A stretch of 64,000 nt of DNA from contig JAIXOL010000033.1 of the NCBI GenBank assembly GCA_027486845.1, positions 1 to 64,000 of the forward strand. The letters run 5' to 3'. This DNA is from Cytophagaceae bacterium. Its GTDB lineage: Bacteria; Bacteroidota; Bacteroidia; Cytophagales; Spirosomataceae. Numbering within the stretch: position 1 is the stretch's first letter; each line of letters opens with the position of its first letter. Both the position numbers and the translations under genes were made by a program. Below are positions 6,694 to 36,456 of the stretch, in pieces. A model generated the notes under the pieces. The model ran no database searches. It had not been told where the DNA came from and worked only from the letters and a program-made list of their open reading frames with translations.

Positions 6694-7040
6694 ATCTCCC
6701 CTCTCATGTGGAGAGGGGTCGGGGGTGAGGTTTTTTTAGCGTTAAAATCTACTTATAAACATCATCCTAATTCCTTCTCCACAGCAGAAGGACTTTGAAA
6801 AAAAGAATCAATTATCTCCCCTCTCATGTGGAGAGGGGCCGGGGGTGAGGTTTTTTTAACGTTAAAATCTACTTATAAACCTCATCCTAATTCCTTCTCC
6901 ACAGCAGAAGGATTTTAAAAAAAAGAATCAATTATCTCCCCTCTCATGTGGAGAGGGGTCGGGGGTGAGGTTTTTTTAGCGTTAAAATCTACTTATAAAC
7001 ATCATCTTAAATCCTTCTCCACAGGAGAAAGACTTTGAAA
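6694..7040. repeat. Three tandem copies of the 120-bp hairpin repeat (inverted relative to 1-240)
   Basis: Units start at 6694, 6814 and 6934, an exact 120-bp period. Each begins atctcccctctcatgtggag and carries the two hairpins seen at 1-240, in the opposite orientation. The copies differ by only a few substitutions, for example gtc/gcc after gagaggg. Divergence rises at the end of the third copy. Confidence 0.9.
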
Positions 7041-7064
7041 TTGAAGAAATTACGTGGTAATCGT

Positions 7065-7190
7065 GGATTACAAATCCACTACTCTAAAGTCGAAGATTGA
7101 AAATCTCGACCAACGGGTGAATTTACGTAGAAAAACGTGTATTACAAATCCATTGCTATAAGGTCGAAGATTATAAATCTCGACCAGTTG
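7065..7190. repeat. Two copies of a hairpin repeat (ggattacaaatcc family)
   Basis: Copies begin at 7065 and 7139, 74 bp apart. Each has GGATT-aca-AATCC (degenerate in copy two) followed by an imperfect stem GTCGAAGATT...AATCTCGAC. A third copy lies at 51383-51435, far away in the window, so this is a dispersed family. Confidence 0.75.
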
Positions 7191-7200
7191 GGGGGCAAAA

Positions 7201-7240
7201 AACTGCCAACTGCCAACTGAAAACTGCCGACTGCCAACTA
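7201..7240. repeat. Heptamer repeat run (aactgcc-type)
   Basis: Nearly six 7-bp units (aactgcc, aactgcc, aactgaa, aactgcc, gactgcc, aacta) run directly into the stop codon (7238-7240) of the nucleotide-sugar dehydrogenase gene. The same heptamer type occurs inside a glycosyltransferase gene at 36305-36363. Confidence 0.8.
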
Positions 7241-14675: not shown

Positions 14676-16607
14676 ATGGCAGCACAAATTGCAGATTTTG
14701 ACTGGGAAAAGGTCACCAAAAGAGGTATTGGCGGAGGCTATTCAGCCGACGAAAAAGCAAAATTAGAAGCTCTCTACAGTGAGACACTTGCTAATGTAAC
14801 AGAAAAAGATGTAGTAATGGCAACGGTAGTGGGTATCACTGACCGTGAAGTATTGCTTAACATCGGTTTTAAATCAGATGGTTTAGTTTCGACTTCTGAA
14901 TTCCGTGACCTTCCTAACCTCGCAGTAGGCGATACAGTGGAAGTTTTCATCGAAAAACAAGAAGATGCTATGGGTCAGTTGGTTATCTCTCGCAAGAAAG
15001 CAAGAGTATTGACTGCTTGGAGCAACATCGAAAAATCATTTACTGAAGATGCAATTATTGATGCTTTGGTAAAACGCCGTACAAAAGGTGGTTTGATTGT
15101 TGATATTTATGGAATTGAGGCATTCTTGCCAGGTTCACAAATTGACGTAAAACCAATTCGTGACTTTGATATTTTCGTAGGTAAGAAAATGGAAGTGAAG
15201 GTTGTGAAAATCAATCATACTAACGATAACGTAGTAGTTTCACACAAAATCCTTATCGAGAAAGACCTTGAAACACAACGTCAGGTTATCCTTACTAACC
15301 TTGAAAAAGGACAAGTATTGGAAGGTGTTGTTAAAAACATCACTAACTTCGGTGTATTCATTGACCTTGGTGGCGTAGATGGTCTATTGCACATCACTGA
15401 TATTTCGTGGGGACGTATCAATCATCCAAACGAATTATTGAAACTTGACCAACGTATCAAAGTTGTAGTATTAGACTTTGATGAAGAGAAAAAACGTATT
15501 TCTCTTGGTATGAAGCAATTGGAAAACCATCCTTGGGATTCATTAGCTGCTGAATTATCAATTGGTTCAAGAGTTAAAGGAAAAATCGTAAACATCGCTG
15601 ATTACGGTGCTTTCTTAGAATTGAAGCCAGGTGTTGAAGGTTTGATTCACGTTTCAGAAATGTCATGGTCACAACACTTACGTAACCCATCTGATTTCTT
15701 GAAAATCGGTGACGAAATCGAAGCAGTTGTATTGACGCTTGACCGTGATGACCGTAAAATGTCATTGGGTATCAAGCAATTGACTGAAGATCCTTGGACT
15801 AAGCAAGACCTTATCAACAAGTATGCAGTGAACACAAAACACACTGGTACTGTACGTAATATGACTAACTTCGGTATTTTCTTAGAATTAGAAGAAGGTA
15901 TTGATGGTTTGGTTCACGTATCTGATTTGTCTTGGACTAAGAAAATCAAACACCCATCTGACTTCGTGAAAGTTGGTGATGCTCTTGAAGTAATGGTATT
16001 AGAATTAGATGGCGAAAACCGTCGTTTAGCTCTTAGCCACAAACACTTAGAAGAAAATCCTTGGGATACGTTTGAGCATATCTTTACTGTAGGTTCTGAC
16101 CAAGAATGTACAATCATCTCTAAAAATGACAAACAAGCAACACTTGAACTTCCTTACGGAATCGAAGGTTATGCTTTGTTGAAGCATTTGGCTAAAGCTG
16201 ACGGAACAGTTGGTGAAGTTGGTGAGAAATTGACATTCCAAGTATTGGAATTCCACAAGGAAGAGAAGAAAATCATGCTTTCTCACGCTAAAACTTGGGA
16301 AGTTGTGAAAGAAGAAGCTCCAAAAGAAGCTAAGAAAAAAGGTGGAAAAGAAGCCTCAACAACTTCTTCTTCAAACAATAACGAAGAAAAATCAACTCTT
16401 GGCGATTTATCAGCACTTTCAGCATTGAAAGACGCAATGGTAGAAGGTGAAAAGAAGAAACTTTCTAAGAAAAAAGATGCCGCAGTGGAGACTGCCGCAG
16501 TGGATGCTGCCGCAGTGGAGACTGCTCCTGCAGTTGAAGAAGTAGTAGCCGAAGTTGCTCCAGCAGTGGACGCTACTCCAGAAGCTGACGCTCCAGCTGA
16601 AGCTTAA
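14676..16607 (+). CDS. rpsA: 30S ribosomal protein S1
   Basis: Binds mRNA and helps deliver it to the 30S subunit. Six S1 RNA-binding domains run in order at roughly 58-125, 140-205, 222-290, 309-377, 396-464 and 480-552. The later repeats carry clear S1 phrases such as NFGVFIDLGGVDGLLH, DYGAFLELKPGVEGLIH and NFGIFLELEEGIDGLVH. The last 90 residues are a low-complexity Lys/Glu then Ala/Val/Glu tail with a short direct repeat (AAVETAAVDAAAVETA), which is common in Bacteroidota S1. Codon use is strongly biased, as expected of a highly expressed gene. It is monocistronic with a promoter and terminator. Confidence 0.97.
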   Translation: MAAQIADFDWEKVTKRGIGGGYSADEKAKLEALYSETLANVTEKDVVMATVVGITDREVLLNIGFKSDGLVSTSEFRDLPNLAVGDTVEVFIEKQEDAMGQLVISRKKARVLTAWSNIEKSFTEDAIIDALVKRRTKGGLIVDIYGIEAFLPGSQIDVKPIRDFDIFVGKKMEVKVVKINHTNDNVVVSHKILIEKDLETQRQVILTNLEKGQVLEGVVKNITNFGVFIDLGGVDGLLHITDISWGRINHPNELLKLDQRIKVVVLDFDEEKKRISLGMKQLENHPWDSLAAELSIGSRVKGKIVNIADYGAFLELKPGVEGLIHVSEMSWSQHLRNPSDFLKIGDEIEAVVLTLDRDDRKMSLGIKQLTEDPWTKQDLINKYAVNTKHTGTVRNMTNFGIFLELEEGIDGLVHVSDLSWTKKIKHPSDFVKVGDALEVMVLELDGENRRLALSHKHLEENPWDTFEHIFTVGSDQECTIISKNDKQATLELPYGIEGYALLKHLAKADGTVGEVGEKLTFQVLEFHKEEKKIMLSHAKTWEVVKEEAPKEAKKKGGKEASTTSSSNNNEEKSTLGDLSALSALKDAMVEGEKKKLSKKKDAAVETAAVDAAAVETAPAVEEVVAEVAPAVDATPEADAPAEA

Positions 16608-16630
16608 TTTCTTTCGTTTTGAAATATTAA

Positions 16631-16661
16631 AAAAGGCTTCTCGCAAGGGAAGCCTTTTTTA
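16631..16661 (+). terminator. Rho-independent terminator of rpsA
   Basis: AAAAGGCTTC-tcgcaagg-GAAGCCTTTTTT forms a stem followed by a T-run, 24 bp after the stop codon. Confidence 0.9.
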
Positions 16662-16689
16662 TACATTTTTATGTTTTACTGTCCTACTC

Positions 16690-16985
16690 CTTCATCTGTC
16701 AAAAAGTTGTACCGTTGATGTTCAACCCTCTTCGGGGTTTAACCCACTTCGCTTCTTAAATCTCCGAATTTCATTCGGAGCTATTCGAGTTGAAGCCCTT
16801 CGGGCTTGAATGTCTAACATGGGTTACCGCTCAACTACTTCATCTGCCAAAAAGTTGTACCGCTGATGTTCAACCCACTTCGGGGTTGGAACCACTTCGC
16901 TTTTTAAATCTCCGAATTTCATTCGGAGCTATTCAAGTTGAAGCCCTTCGGGCTTGAATGTCTAACATGGTTTACCGCACAACGC
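16690..16985. repeat. Two exact-period 148-bp tandem repeats overlapping a gene tail
   Basis: Units start at 16690 and 16838, and the beginning of a third (16986) is the coding 3' end of the adjacent minus-strand gene. Each unit starts cttcatctg(c/t)caaaaa and contains three hairpins with short TTC-type loops: AACCC-ttc-GGGTT type, CTCCGAAT-ttc-ATTCGGAG and GAAGCCC-ttc-GGGCTT. The units differ by about ten substitutions. The end of unit two (gtttaccgcacaac) encodes the last codons and stop of the Uma2-like gene in reverse. Confidence 0.88.
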
Positions 16986-17583
16986 CTTCATCTGCCAAAA
17001 ATTGGCCAATATTAAAATACTCGCCATCGAGTAATTCTATTTCTTGGTTCCAGTTTTTTGTTAGCCAATCTTGGTCTTTGGTAGCTACCATTACTTTTTG
17101 GTGCTTTGTGAAAATCCATAATACTTTTTCTACGCCAAAATCAAGCAACTTATGAGTTTTGGTGAATACATAACCAAAATCCTTTTCATCTGATAAATCT
17201 ATACGAATATCTATCTCAATAGCAATTTTTGGAGCAACTTCTATATAGTGTGTGTTGATTTTGTCGGGAGAAAGTTTAGACTTTTCATAAATATAAATAT
17301 CGCCCGAAAGATTATTGTTTTTATCAAGGTGCGTGCCTATTTCATTAGTTAAAAAACGATACTTTCTATCATCAAGTTTTGCATATAAAACCTTCAGAAG
17401 GTAATAAATAATGTAAGATTGTAAGCCACTTGCACCCATAATTTCCTCACTTGTTTTTTTATTTGCTAAAACATCTTTATAACCTTCATAGTAAAGTGGT
17501 TTCCCGTCTATGACTTCATAAATAAGACTTTCGGGAATTGTTTTAGCTCTATTTCTTTGTCTTGGTTTTTCTGCGATTAACAT
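16972..17583 (-). CDS. Uma2-family (DUF820) PD-(D/E)XK nuclease-fold protein
   Basis: The Uma2 family has a restriction-endonuclease fold. Its biological role is mostly unknown, and it is often present in many copies in Cytophagales and cyanobacteria. Seen here are IYEVIDGKPLYYEGY near the N terminus, an Asp before a strand (SGDIYIYEK, about 94-102) and the acidic/hydrophobic PKIAIEID strand (about 119-126), at the places of the family's D...E-x-D/K active residues. GVEKVLWIFTKHQKVMVA follows as the usual core. The last codons (LADEGVVR-stop) lie within the 148-bp repeat family. It is monocistronic and 203 aa long. Confidence 0.75.
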   Translation of the reverse strand: MLIAEKPRQRNRAKTIPESLIYEVIDGKPLYYEGYKDVLANKKTSEEIMGASGLQSYIIYYLLKVLYAKLDDRKYRFLTNEIGTHLDKNNNLSGDIYIYEKSKLSPDKINTHYIEVAPKIAIEIDIRIDLSDEKDFGYVFTKTHKLLDFGVEKVLWIFTKHQKVMVATKDQDWLTKNWNQEIELLDGEYFNIGQFLADEGVVR

Positions 17584-34980: not shown

Positions 34981-36456
34981 CTAACTTGCTTGCTTAAAAG
35001 TATAGAACAAAACACTTCCATACCCCACAATCAGCATCAAATGAAAAGGTATTAAACCGAAGTTGCCTAGATATATTTCGATAGCCAAAACCACAATAAA
35101 ATAAAGCATCAACAAAAGTTCAATCCATGTACTTTTACCAAGGTTTTTGGTCAAATACTTGTTTCCTTGCCACGAATCTGATTGATTATTTACATTGAAC
35201 TTTGGTGTACGAACGAAAGGTGTTTTTCTACCTAGCCATCCTTCGACTACGGCTATGGAATTATGAAACGAAAGCCCCATCATAAATAATAAAAACAGCA
35301 CAAATCGTTTTACAAATTCAAAAAAACCAAGTCCAGTTTTTTGGAAAGAAATCCAATAAAAACAACCCAAAATCACCCAACTGACTTGAAATAAGGCCGT
35401 ATATCGAAAAAATACATCAAATCTGTCGGAACTTGAGGTAATAAGCATGACAGGCAAACTCAAAATCGACAAGAAAAATACCGCCACAAAAACCGCACTA
35501 TTCATTAAATGATAAAAACCGTGTAGTCTCGTAGAAATACTTAAATGACTATCAGACAATAACTTACGCAGATTTTTCACGACACATTCGGCCGCACCTT
35601 TTGTCCAGCGATATTGCTGAGATTTGACCGCACTCATAGTCACGGGCAGTTCGGCGGGACAGCCAACATTTTCTAAATAAACAAATTTCCAATCTCGCAT
35701 TTGAGCCCGATAACTCAAATCTAAATCTTCGGTAAGTGTATCGGCTTCCCAGCCTCCTGCCTCTTCAATTGTACTTTTTCGCCAAATTCCTGCTGTTCCA
35801 TTAAAGTTTATGAAGTGATTTTTAGCATTTCGGCCGCCTTGTTCAATCGTAAAATGAGCATCTAAGCCAAAAGCTTGAAGCTGAGTCAGCAAAGAATAGT
35901 TTTCGTTGAGGTGTTGCCAGCGAGTTTGCACTACGCCAACATTCGGTTCTGCAAAATGAGGAATTGTTTTTTGTAGAAAATCTTTTGGCGGAACAAAATC
36001 AGCATCAAAAATAGCGATAAACTCACCTTTGCAAATCTTCATTCCATAAGCCAAAGCTCCAGCTTTAAATCCTTTTCTATCTGTGCGTCTAATATGCTGA
36101 ATATCAATGCCTAATGATTGTATTTCTTTTAATTTCGAGGAAATAATCTCCACCGTTTCGTCAGTCGAATCGTCTAAAACTTGTATCTCAAAACGGTCTT
36201 TTGGATAATCAAAAGCCGCCACGGCATCAATCAACCGCTCAACTACATAAAGCTCGTTATAAATAGGAAGCTGAATTGTTACGAAAGGATATGCCTCACC
36301 AAGTGCCAACTGCCAACCGCCAACCGCCGACTGCCGACCGCCGACTGCCAACTGCAGACCGCCTAAATAATTAATAATCAGACTCAACTGCACTAAGCTA
36401 TAAGAAAAAATAAAAACCAACGGAATGGCATAAATGACAAGAATAAATAGCTCCAT
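34981..36456 (-). CDS. Membrane glycosyltransferase family 2 (cellulose-synthase-like)
   Basis: Processive-type GT2 with an N-terminal TM (about 2-29), catalytic domain (about 55-300) and four or more C-terminal TMs. Motifs: VTIQLPIYNE, VLDDSTDETVEII, IFDADFVPP (DxD), TLTEDLDLSYRAQ (ED) and QQYRWTKGAAE (QxxRW). It resembles glucomannan/beta-glycan synthases that make glycolipid or polysaccharide. Residues about 31-51, before the catalytic domain, are a 7-residue repeat of the LQLAVGG / RQSAVGG / WQLALGE kind encoded by a DNA heptamer array (36305-36363), not a family feature. It is 6 nt downstream of another GT2 gene. Confidence 0.88.
   Translation of the reverse strand: MELFILVIYAIPLVFIFSYSLVQLSLIINYLGGLQLAVGGRQSAVGGWQLALGEAYPFVTIQLPIYNELYVVERLIDAVAAFDYPKDRFEIQVLDDSTDETVEIISSKLKEIQSLGIDIQHIRRTDRKGFKAGALAYGMKICKGEFIAIFDADFVPPKDFLQKTIPHFAEPNVGVVQTRWQHLNENYSLLTQLQAFGLDAHFTIEQGGRNAKNHFINFNGTAGIWRKSTIEEAGGWEADTLTEDLDLSYRAQMRDWKFVYLENVGCPAELPVTMSAVKSQQYRWTKGAAECVVKNLRKLLSDSHLSISTRLHGFYHLMNSAVFVAVFFLSILSLPVMLITSSSDRFDVFFRYTALFQVSWVILGCFYWISFQKTGLGFFEFVKRFVLFLLFMMGLSFHNSIAVVEGWLGRKTPFVRTPKFNVNNQSDSWQGNKYLTKNLGKSTWIELLLMLYFIVVLAIEIYLGNFGLIPFHLMLIVGYGSVLFYTFKQAS
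36305..36363. repeat. Heptamer repeat array inside a glycosyltransferase gene
   Basis: Eight consecutive 7-bp units (gccaact, gccaacc, gccaacc, gccgact, gccgacc, gccgact, gccaact, gcagacc) plus gcc. Seven is not a multiple of three, so gain or loss of one unit shifts the frame. Confidence 0.88.

Follow-up and report, generated by a model that had tools for sequence, protein, structure and literature searches.

A 148-bp tandem array at the end of a Uma2-like gene is probably a small cluster of a transposase-linked, three-hairpin element

How does the end of a coding gene come to lie inside a tandem repeat, and does the repeat alter the protein? Both questions are raised by a locus in the 64,000-nt stretch analysed here (the window; positions 1 to 64,000 of contig JAIXOL010000033.1, assembly GCA_027486845.1, from a Cytophagaceae bacterium of the Spirosomataceae), where a 148-bp tandem repeat includes the 3′ end of a gene for a Uma2-like protein. 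The original prediction, made from the sequence alone, read this arrangement as an unusual way of changing a protein's C terminus. We find instead that the array is, with good confidence, a small tandem cluster of an element that resembles repetitive extragenic palindromic (REP) sequences and is linked to a transposase.

The array spans 16671-17001 and consists of two 148-bp units (16671-16818 and 16819-16966) followed by a 35-nt partial third unit (16967-17001), without indels. Aligned by script, the two units are identical at 133/148 positions (15 mismatches). A repeat finder returned the same three pieces, with 90% identity between the full units, and the program TRF reported a period of 148 with 2.1 copies and 0% indels at 16686-17001. 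Across all lags from 50 to 400, 148-nt self-identity peaks at 0.926 at lag 148, compared with a maximum of 0.446 in 30 Markov shuffles in which every fifth lag was tried. The two units and the partial unit formed by the gene end are therefore as originally described, with the outer boundaries corrected to 16671-17001. Since the units are 10% divergent, they are not an assembly duplication of identical copies.

Each unit joins a 35-nt gene tail (nine codons, a TAA stop and 5 nt) to a 113-nt element with three hairpins. Read on the minus strand, the Uma2-like gene body is followed by tail copy T3 (16967..17001, the resident end of the gene), the proximal element (16854..16966), tail copy T2 (16819..16853), the distal element (16706..16818), tail copy T1 (16671..16705), a short spacer, a terminator-like hairpin and the end of a convergent S1-domain gene. 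T3 and T2 were delimited by repeat search, script and comparison with relatives, and T1 by comparison with relatives. A covariance model of the element matches the proximal copy at 16863-16959 (90.1 bits) and the distal copy at 16715-16811 (88.9 bits). The tails have diverged more than the elements between them, with T1 and T2 differing at 8/37 positions and the two elements at 7/111 (p 0.0125).

The partial unit contains the final nine codons and stop of the open reading frame (ORF) at 16972-17583(-). Translated up to their stop codons, T3 reads FLADEGVVR, T2 reads FLADEVVER, with the frame and stop of T3, and T1 reads FLTDEGVGQ. The orthologues of three relatives that share the gene order end in FLADEGVVQ, FLADEGVEQ and FLADEGVEQ, again followed by a stop. 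The repeat has thus neither added to nor removed from the protein: three tails and three orthologues end nearly alike. That the array is a device for varying the C terminus draws on the position of the gene end inside the repeat, but frame, length and stop are kept in all three copies and orthologues without an array have nearly the same ends, so we reject this reading as highly improbable. Because every unit carries an in-frame tail with its stop, units can be gained or lost while the protein remains intact.

We then asked what the repeated element is. It comprises hairpin 1 (AAGCCC-GAA-GGGCTT), a linker YAACWYGAATAGC, hairpin 2 (CTCCGAAT-GAA-ATTCGGAG; a stem of 8 with the loop GAA), an A-rich spacer, hairpin 3 (AACCC..GGGTT) and then RAAC, for a total of about 96-113 nt. 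In the proximal element an automatic stem finder placed all three hairpins, at 16941-16955, 16910-16928 and 16871-16888 (minus strand). It missed hairpin 3 in the distal element, where the positions 16793-16807, 16762-16780 and 16723-16740 are transferred from the proximal unit. In its minimum-energy fold the distal unit has hairpins 2 and 3 and pairs hairpin 1 otherwise, and the folding energies of single units are unexceptional (z -1.19 and -1.65), which is why the claim of structure rests on covariation across the family.

This architecture is shared by 17 instances, 13 from this genome, which probably belongs to the genus Emticicia, three from its relative G004 and one from its relative G006. 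Across hairpins 1 and 2 of these instances, 91.6% of cells are paired, with 50 double-change cells compared with a shuffled mean of 15.8 and a covariation score of 0.567 compared with 0.223 after shuffling; the signal disappears when partners are slid by one column. A larger alignment holds the best 150 of 202 matches to the covariance model at E <= 1e-6 (78 loci, L075 left out). From it RNAalifold recovers hairpin 1, hairpin 2 and a 4-pair hairpin 3, with changes on both sides at 17/17 pairs. Hairpins 1 and 2 are paired in 97.9% of cells and show 475 double-change cells compared with 126 after shuffling, counts that lean towards the model because the alignment was fitted to it at these two hairpins and not at hairpin 3. 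The predicted recurrence of hairpins in each unit is borne out by this family-wide covariation; what had been missed is that they form a dispersed repeat family tied to a transposase. No Rfam family was found in the window at the gathering threshold.

The transposase link begins with one of the Y1_Tnp genes of this genome (contig C18, 19696-20139; 148 aa), which has an element upstream and an inverted copy downstream. Its protein matches Pfam PF01797 (Y1_Tnp) with 80.8 bits, the sole Pfam domain found, and the NCBIfam IS200/IS605 family with 64.4 bits (cut-off 55), and reaches only 24.1 of the 80 bits for REP_Tyr_transpos. It carries the motifs DHIH, WQ and YVKNQEEHH. The homologue in G004 is identical at 138/148 positions and has the same inverted-element arrangement. 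Scanning a genome collection for relatives of the transposase yielded 194; the 80 best, at 79 loci, were used for the locus counts. By record title these loci belong to Bacteroidota, Balneolaceae, Ignavibacteriae, Chlorobiota, Cloacimonadota and Neomarinimicrobiota, many of them being metagenome-assembled genomes. Y...Q..HH occurs in 78/79 homologues and WQ in 79/79, while DH[IV]H occurs in only 46/79. Judged by signature, length (~148 aa) and Bacteroidetes host, the protein would fall into TnpA-Y1 subclass 1.2.

The covariance model, R1, was built solely from the 17 genus instances, and on the 79 transposase loci it gives 297 matches at E <= 0.05, with at least one match in 79/79. An element lies directly upstream on the strand of the gene at 55/77 loci and directly downstream on the opposite strand at 48/76; both sides carry it, inverted, at 38/74 loci with enough flank, and at least one expected side does so at 66/79. 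Elements on the wrong strand are found at 5/77 loci upstream and 5/76 downstream. Matches concentrate around the gene, with 274 within 1 kb (182 kb, 1.51 per kb) and 23 beyond (260 kb, 0.09 per kb). In 185 kb of control DNA from 37 sources (30 Uma2 loci, the window and six other Y1_Tnp loci), the model found the two window elements only, each counted twice because one locus, L013, overlaps the window.

Copy numbers of the element are model matches at E <= 0.001 and are lower bounds, as scoring covered part of the candidates. Some matches are overlapping inverted pairs, including among the at least 22 in this genome. Matches occur in 6/11 genomes of the genus (at least 22 here, then 20, 7, 3, 2 and 2), and the two highest counts belong to the two genomes with a close transposase (100% and 93%). 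Transposase-bearing genomes chosen from the 79 loci had matches in 17/17 searched, from at least 2 to at least 74 each. Among 41 genomes of the family, where related transposases are present in 33/41, 7 have matches: the element is present in 4/7 genomes that have a transposase of at least 50% identity, compared with 3/34 of the others (Fisher p 0.0099).

How the array arose is best approached through relatives that lack it. Genes closely related to the Uma2-like gene (79-96% identity) are present in 5 genomes of the genus. In three of these, G006 (96% aa), G010 (90%) and G004 (79%), the orthologue faces the same S1 gene, and in 3/3 the array is missing, with a short spacer and then a terminator-like hairpin after the gene; the other two (G002 and G009) have different neighbours. 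Thus the duplication is absent from relatives, as one would find had the original prediction been mistaken, yet similar hairpins are common elsewhere in this genome. The join that follows T1 in the window, CAGTAAAACATAAAAAT, matches the join in G006. Therefore the old position is that of T1, and the gene now ends in T3. The gene tail is part of the repeat, as first described, and it is the distal copy T1, not the resident tail, that continues into the ancestral downstream sequence.

One way to produce this layout is homologous recombination with an array-bearing allele, in which an imported tail-element-tail-element block replaced the resident tail and displaced the old one distally. T3 differs from the G006 tail at 6/36 positions compared with 24/576 for the gene body (Fisher p 0.0057), an excess that hints at such an import, and the distal copy T1 fits the ancestral join. 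It is a hint only, because the last codons vary between orthologues anyway and the excess may be ordinary; the numbers are small, and a donor was not found. We regard import as possible, and hold it tentatively. Plain tandem duplication, in which slippage or unequal exchange copied the gene tail along with the hairpin cluster and no transposase took part, has a similar standing, conceivable though not favoured. The exact period, the lack of indels and the 10% divergence would suit it, a transposase is unnecessary for tandem amplification, and other hairpin units are arrayed in the window at 1-232 and 6694-7040 with a period of 120-121. However, the duplicated part is one member of a dispersed family with a link to a Y1 transposase, and duplicating one tail with one element does not supply the tails required on each side of the first element.

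For the transposase-linked cluster that we favour, a mechanism can be proposed. A TnpA of the Y...Q..HH type would recognise the hairpins as single-stranded DNA and disperse the element, by analogy with the REP-associated tyrosine transposases (RAYTs), which are thought to act in this way on REPs. One element would first have come to lie at the end of the gene, and the element together with its flanking tail would then have been amplified as a tandem unit, either through processing by the transposase or through template switching at hairpins. The first tail-element-tail arrangement would need a prior duplication of the tail or its import from another allele, because an insertion that does not duplicate its target, even with one tandem duplication after it, does not leave a tail on both sides.

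Arrays of the element are not confined to the window. We surveyed the 79 transposase loci and 5 genus loci, examining those with at least two matches, and found nearly contiguous tandem arrays with the element at 24 (21/79 transposase loci and 3/5 genus loci). A gene end was scored when more than 18 nt of an ORF end lay inside the array, the ORF body lay outside and Pfam supported the protein. Two loci qualified, the window, where the Uma2 Pfam match is below the cut-off, and L134; the remaining ORFs were short, overlapped elements or had at most 18 nt inside the array. At L134 (1835-2850; JAIORB010000126.1, a Bacteroidales contig), the tail of an hsdS gene (PF01420, 44 bits), its last 36 codons and stop or 113 nt, is present in three copies with a period of 394 bp and a partial third unit, next to a transposase from this clade. 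Compared with both array tails, the resident hsdS tail has changes in six codons, five of them silent, as expected of alleles under coding constraint, which counts in favour of import. A bolder proposal is that Y1 transposases of subclass 1.2 operate a three-hairpin system that is phylum-wide and has been overlooked, in which one-sided single-strand processing would turn a neighbour's tail plus element into a cassette that can move, be amplified in tandem and replace gene ends while leaving the gene whole, as at the Uma2-like gene and hsdS; we consider this unlikely.

Several observations weigh against a transposase-linked, REP-like cluster. That the element is mobile is something we infer. 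The genome with the highest count in the family, G077 (at least 69), and another, G030 (at least 14), have no detected homologue of the transposase, and 13/79 transposase loci lack an adjacent element in the expected orientation. The stronger flanking numbers depend on the covariance model: an earlier, stricter regular expression placed the element on the expected side at 24/77 loci upstream and 25/76 downstream, and in the wrong orientation at 9 loci on each side. Further standard pair types number 17 in the 17 instances compared with 18.9 in shuffles. Inspected by eye, the alignments of 17 and 150 rows show no conserved foot of the GTAG or CGTC type next to a stem. Among 30 genus loci (the G004 transposase locus and G005:C83 left out), direct repeats near the element occur at 7/30, none of them a clear target-site duplication, with element ends taken as approximate. 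Of these seven loci, only the window has more than 1 nt of a gene end in the direct repeat, and at L198 the one 37-nt direct repeat enclosing a lone element is a different hairpin repeat with no relation to a gene end.

Two candidates were set aside along the way. The strict regular expression proved too narrow, with 122 matches in the 79 loci, 8 in one shuffle and 0 in Uma2 loci L014-L042, and the covariance model was used instead. A target-site duplication of 35-37 nt as the normal mode of insertion is unsupported, as none of the seven direct-repeat loci fits: L043, L046, L189 and the window are arrays, and the repeats at L202 and L184 (19 nt) are portions of the element. L198 (1936-2116, on contig C1 of G004) has its single element between the two 37-nt repeats, each of them a hairpin repeat (GACAAGTTTCCAACTTGTC). 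In G077 the listed matches are mostly overlapping inverted pairs offset by ~63 nt.

The genes on either side suggest a further explanation. The Uma2-like gene (16972..17583, minus strand; 203 aa) was identified from the ORF list and a weak Pfam match (PF05685, E 3.2e-5, 23.9 bits, under the curated cut-off of 27), and an NCBIfam search of the protein gave no match. A Uma2 paralogue on the same contig (81095-81663) is in two pieces with stop codons. The convergent neighbour (14676..16607, plus strand; ORF list and domain search) is probably ribosomal protein S1, a name taken from its S1 domains. Near the end of this gene, at 16478-16525, lie 15-nt coding repeats where the sequence of G006 differs. 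Between the two genes a terminator search found the terminator-like hairpin at 16628..16661 (plus strand), similar to one in the relatives with the empty site; an A-run on its other side suggests that it may serve both genes. The array hairpins might likewise have been duplicated as terminators or messenger RNA (mRNA) stabilisers for this gene pair. They lie just past one stop codon, ahead of the shared terminator, and REP sequences are said, in passages of a survey of Y1 transposases (PMC6006769), to stabilise mRNA and terminate transcription. However, the hairpins are missing in 3/3 relatives with the same gene order, and the array contains a single terminator-like pattern, on the plus strand at 16881-16899, which makes this role improbable.

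Other repeats and Y1_Tnp genes occur in the window and the genome. The arrays at 1-232 and 6694-7040 (periods 121 and 120; 97% and 93% matches) are built from a different hairpin unit, with modules CTCCCCTCTC...GAGAGGGG and CCTTCTCC, and short heptamer repeats of the AACTGCC / CCAACTG type lie at 7199-7239 and 36299-36363. The palindromes GTGGATTACAAATCCAC and GTCGAAGATTATAAATCTCGAC at 7050-7190 also flank another Y1_Tnp gene (C6:39852-40073; L057 1170-1250 and 1850-1908) and are possibly a second REP-like family. Three further Y1_Tnp genes or remnants of this genome, L052 (C56), L055 (C13) and L053 (C68), have the same or a near motif (..HQ in C13) and lie among palindromes; perfect palindromes of at least 7 pairs occur on both sides at C56 and C13, and only shorter ones at C68.

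How does the element compare with known systems? In Pseudomonas, according to passages of Bertels and Rainey 2011 (PMC3116915), REP and REPIN sequences are dispersed palindromic elements that form tandem repeats 'including the flanking sequences', and some of these clusters adjoin a RAYT gene. As far as those passages go, both cases consist of tandem units of a dispersed hairpin element that include flanking DNA; our case differs in its three hairpins, in showing no GTAG foot, in its host, a member of the Bacteroidota, and in its flank, which is the end of a coding gene. Canonical REPs of the GTAG/CGTC superfamilies are single short palindromes of 20-40 bp with a tetranucleotide foot, unlike this element, and share with it dispersed copies that flank a Y1 transposase gene. 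In TIRYTs, or TIRtrons, long inverted repeats flank a Y1 transposase gene, as here, and passages of Di Nocera 2013 (PMC3733652) describe some of these repeats elsewhere singly, in dimers or in clusters, some being double palindromes. However, 20/26 published TIRYTs belong to subclass 2.1 with helix-turn-helix (HTH) C-termini, according to part of PMC6006769; the protein here is a 148-aa Y...Q..HH type in which Pfam finds only Y1_Tnp, and the repeat is a covarying triple hairpin.

A further published group is TnpA-Y1 subclass 1.2 itself, which Quentin 2018 (PMC6006769) describes as generally without typical terminal secondary structure. Signature, length and Bacteroidetes host agree with that account; the three-hairpin element beside most of the genes does not. 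Passages of the same paper note 'atypical secondary structures' beside subclass 2.6 genes of Bacteroidetes, with copies elsewhere in the genome, and the signature there is YIH[QN]NP, unlike Y...Q..HH here. No prior description of hairpins at subclass 1.2 genes was found in the literature searched, which left out most subscription papers; a Chryseobacterium RayT paper contains neither 'palindrom' nor 'repetitive extragenic'. The tandem array as such is an ordinary, known kind of structure, and its coding flank is the less usual part. What appears to be new is a family of three-hairpin elements linked to subclass 1.2-type transposase genes.

These findings extend REP-like systems with tandem clusters into the Bacteroidota. 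A covarying element beside so many of the closest homologues of the transposase offers a concrete substrate on which its activity can be tested. The window and L134, as two cases in which a cluster copies the end of a neighbouring gene, bear on how arrays may grow harmlessly beside genes.
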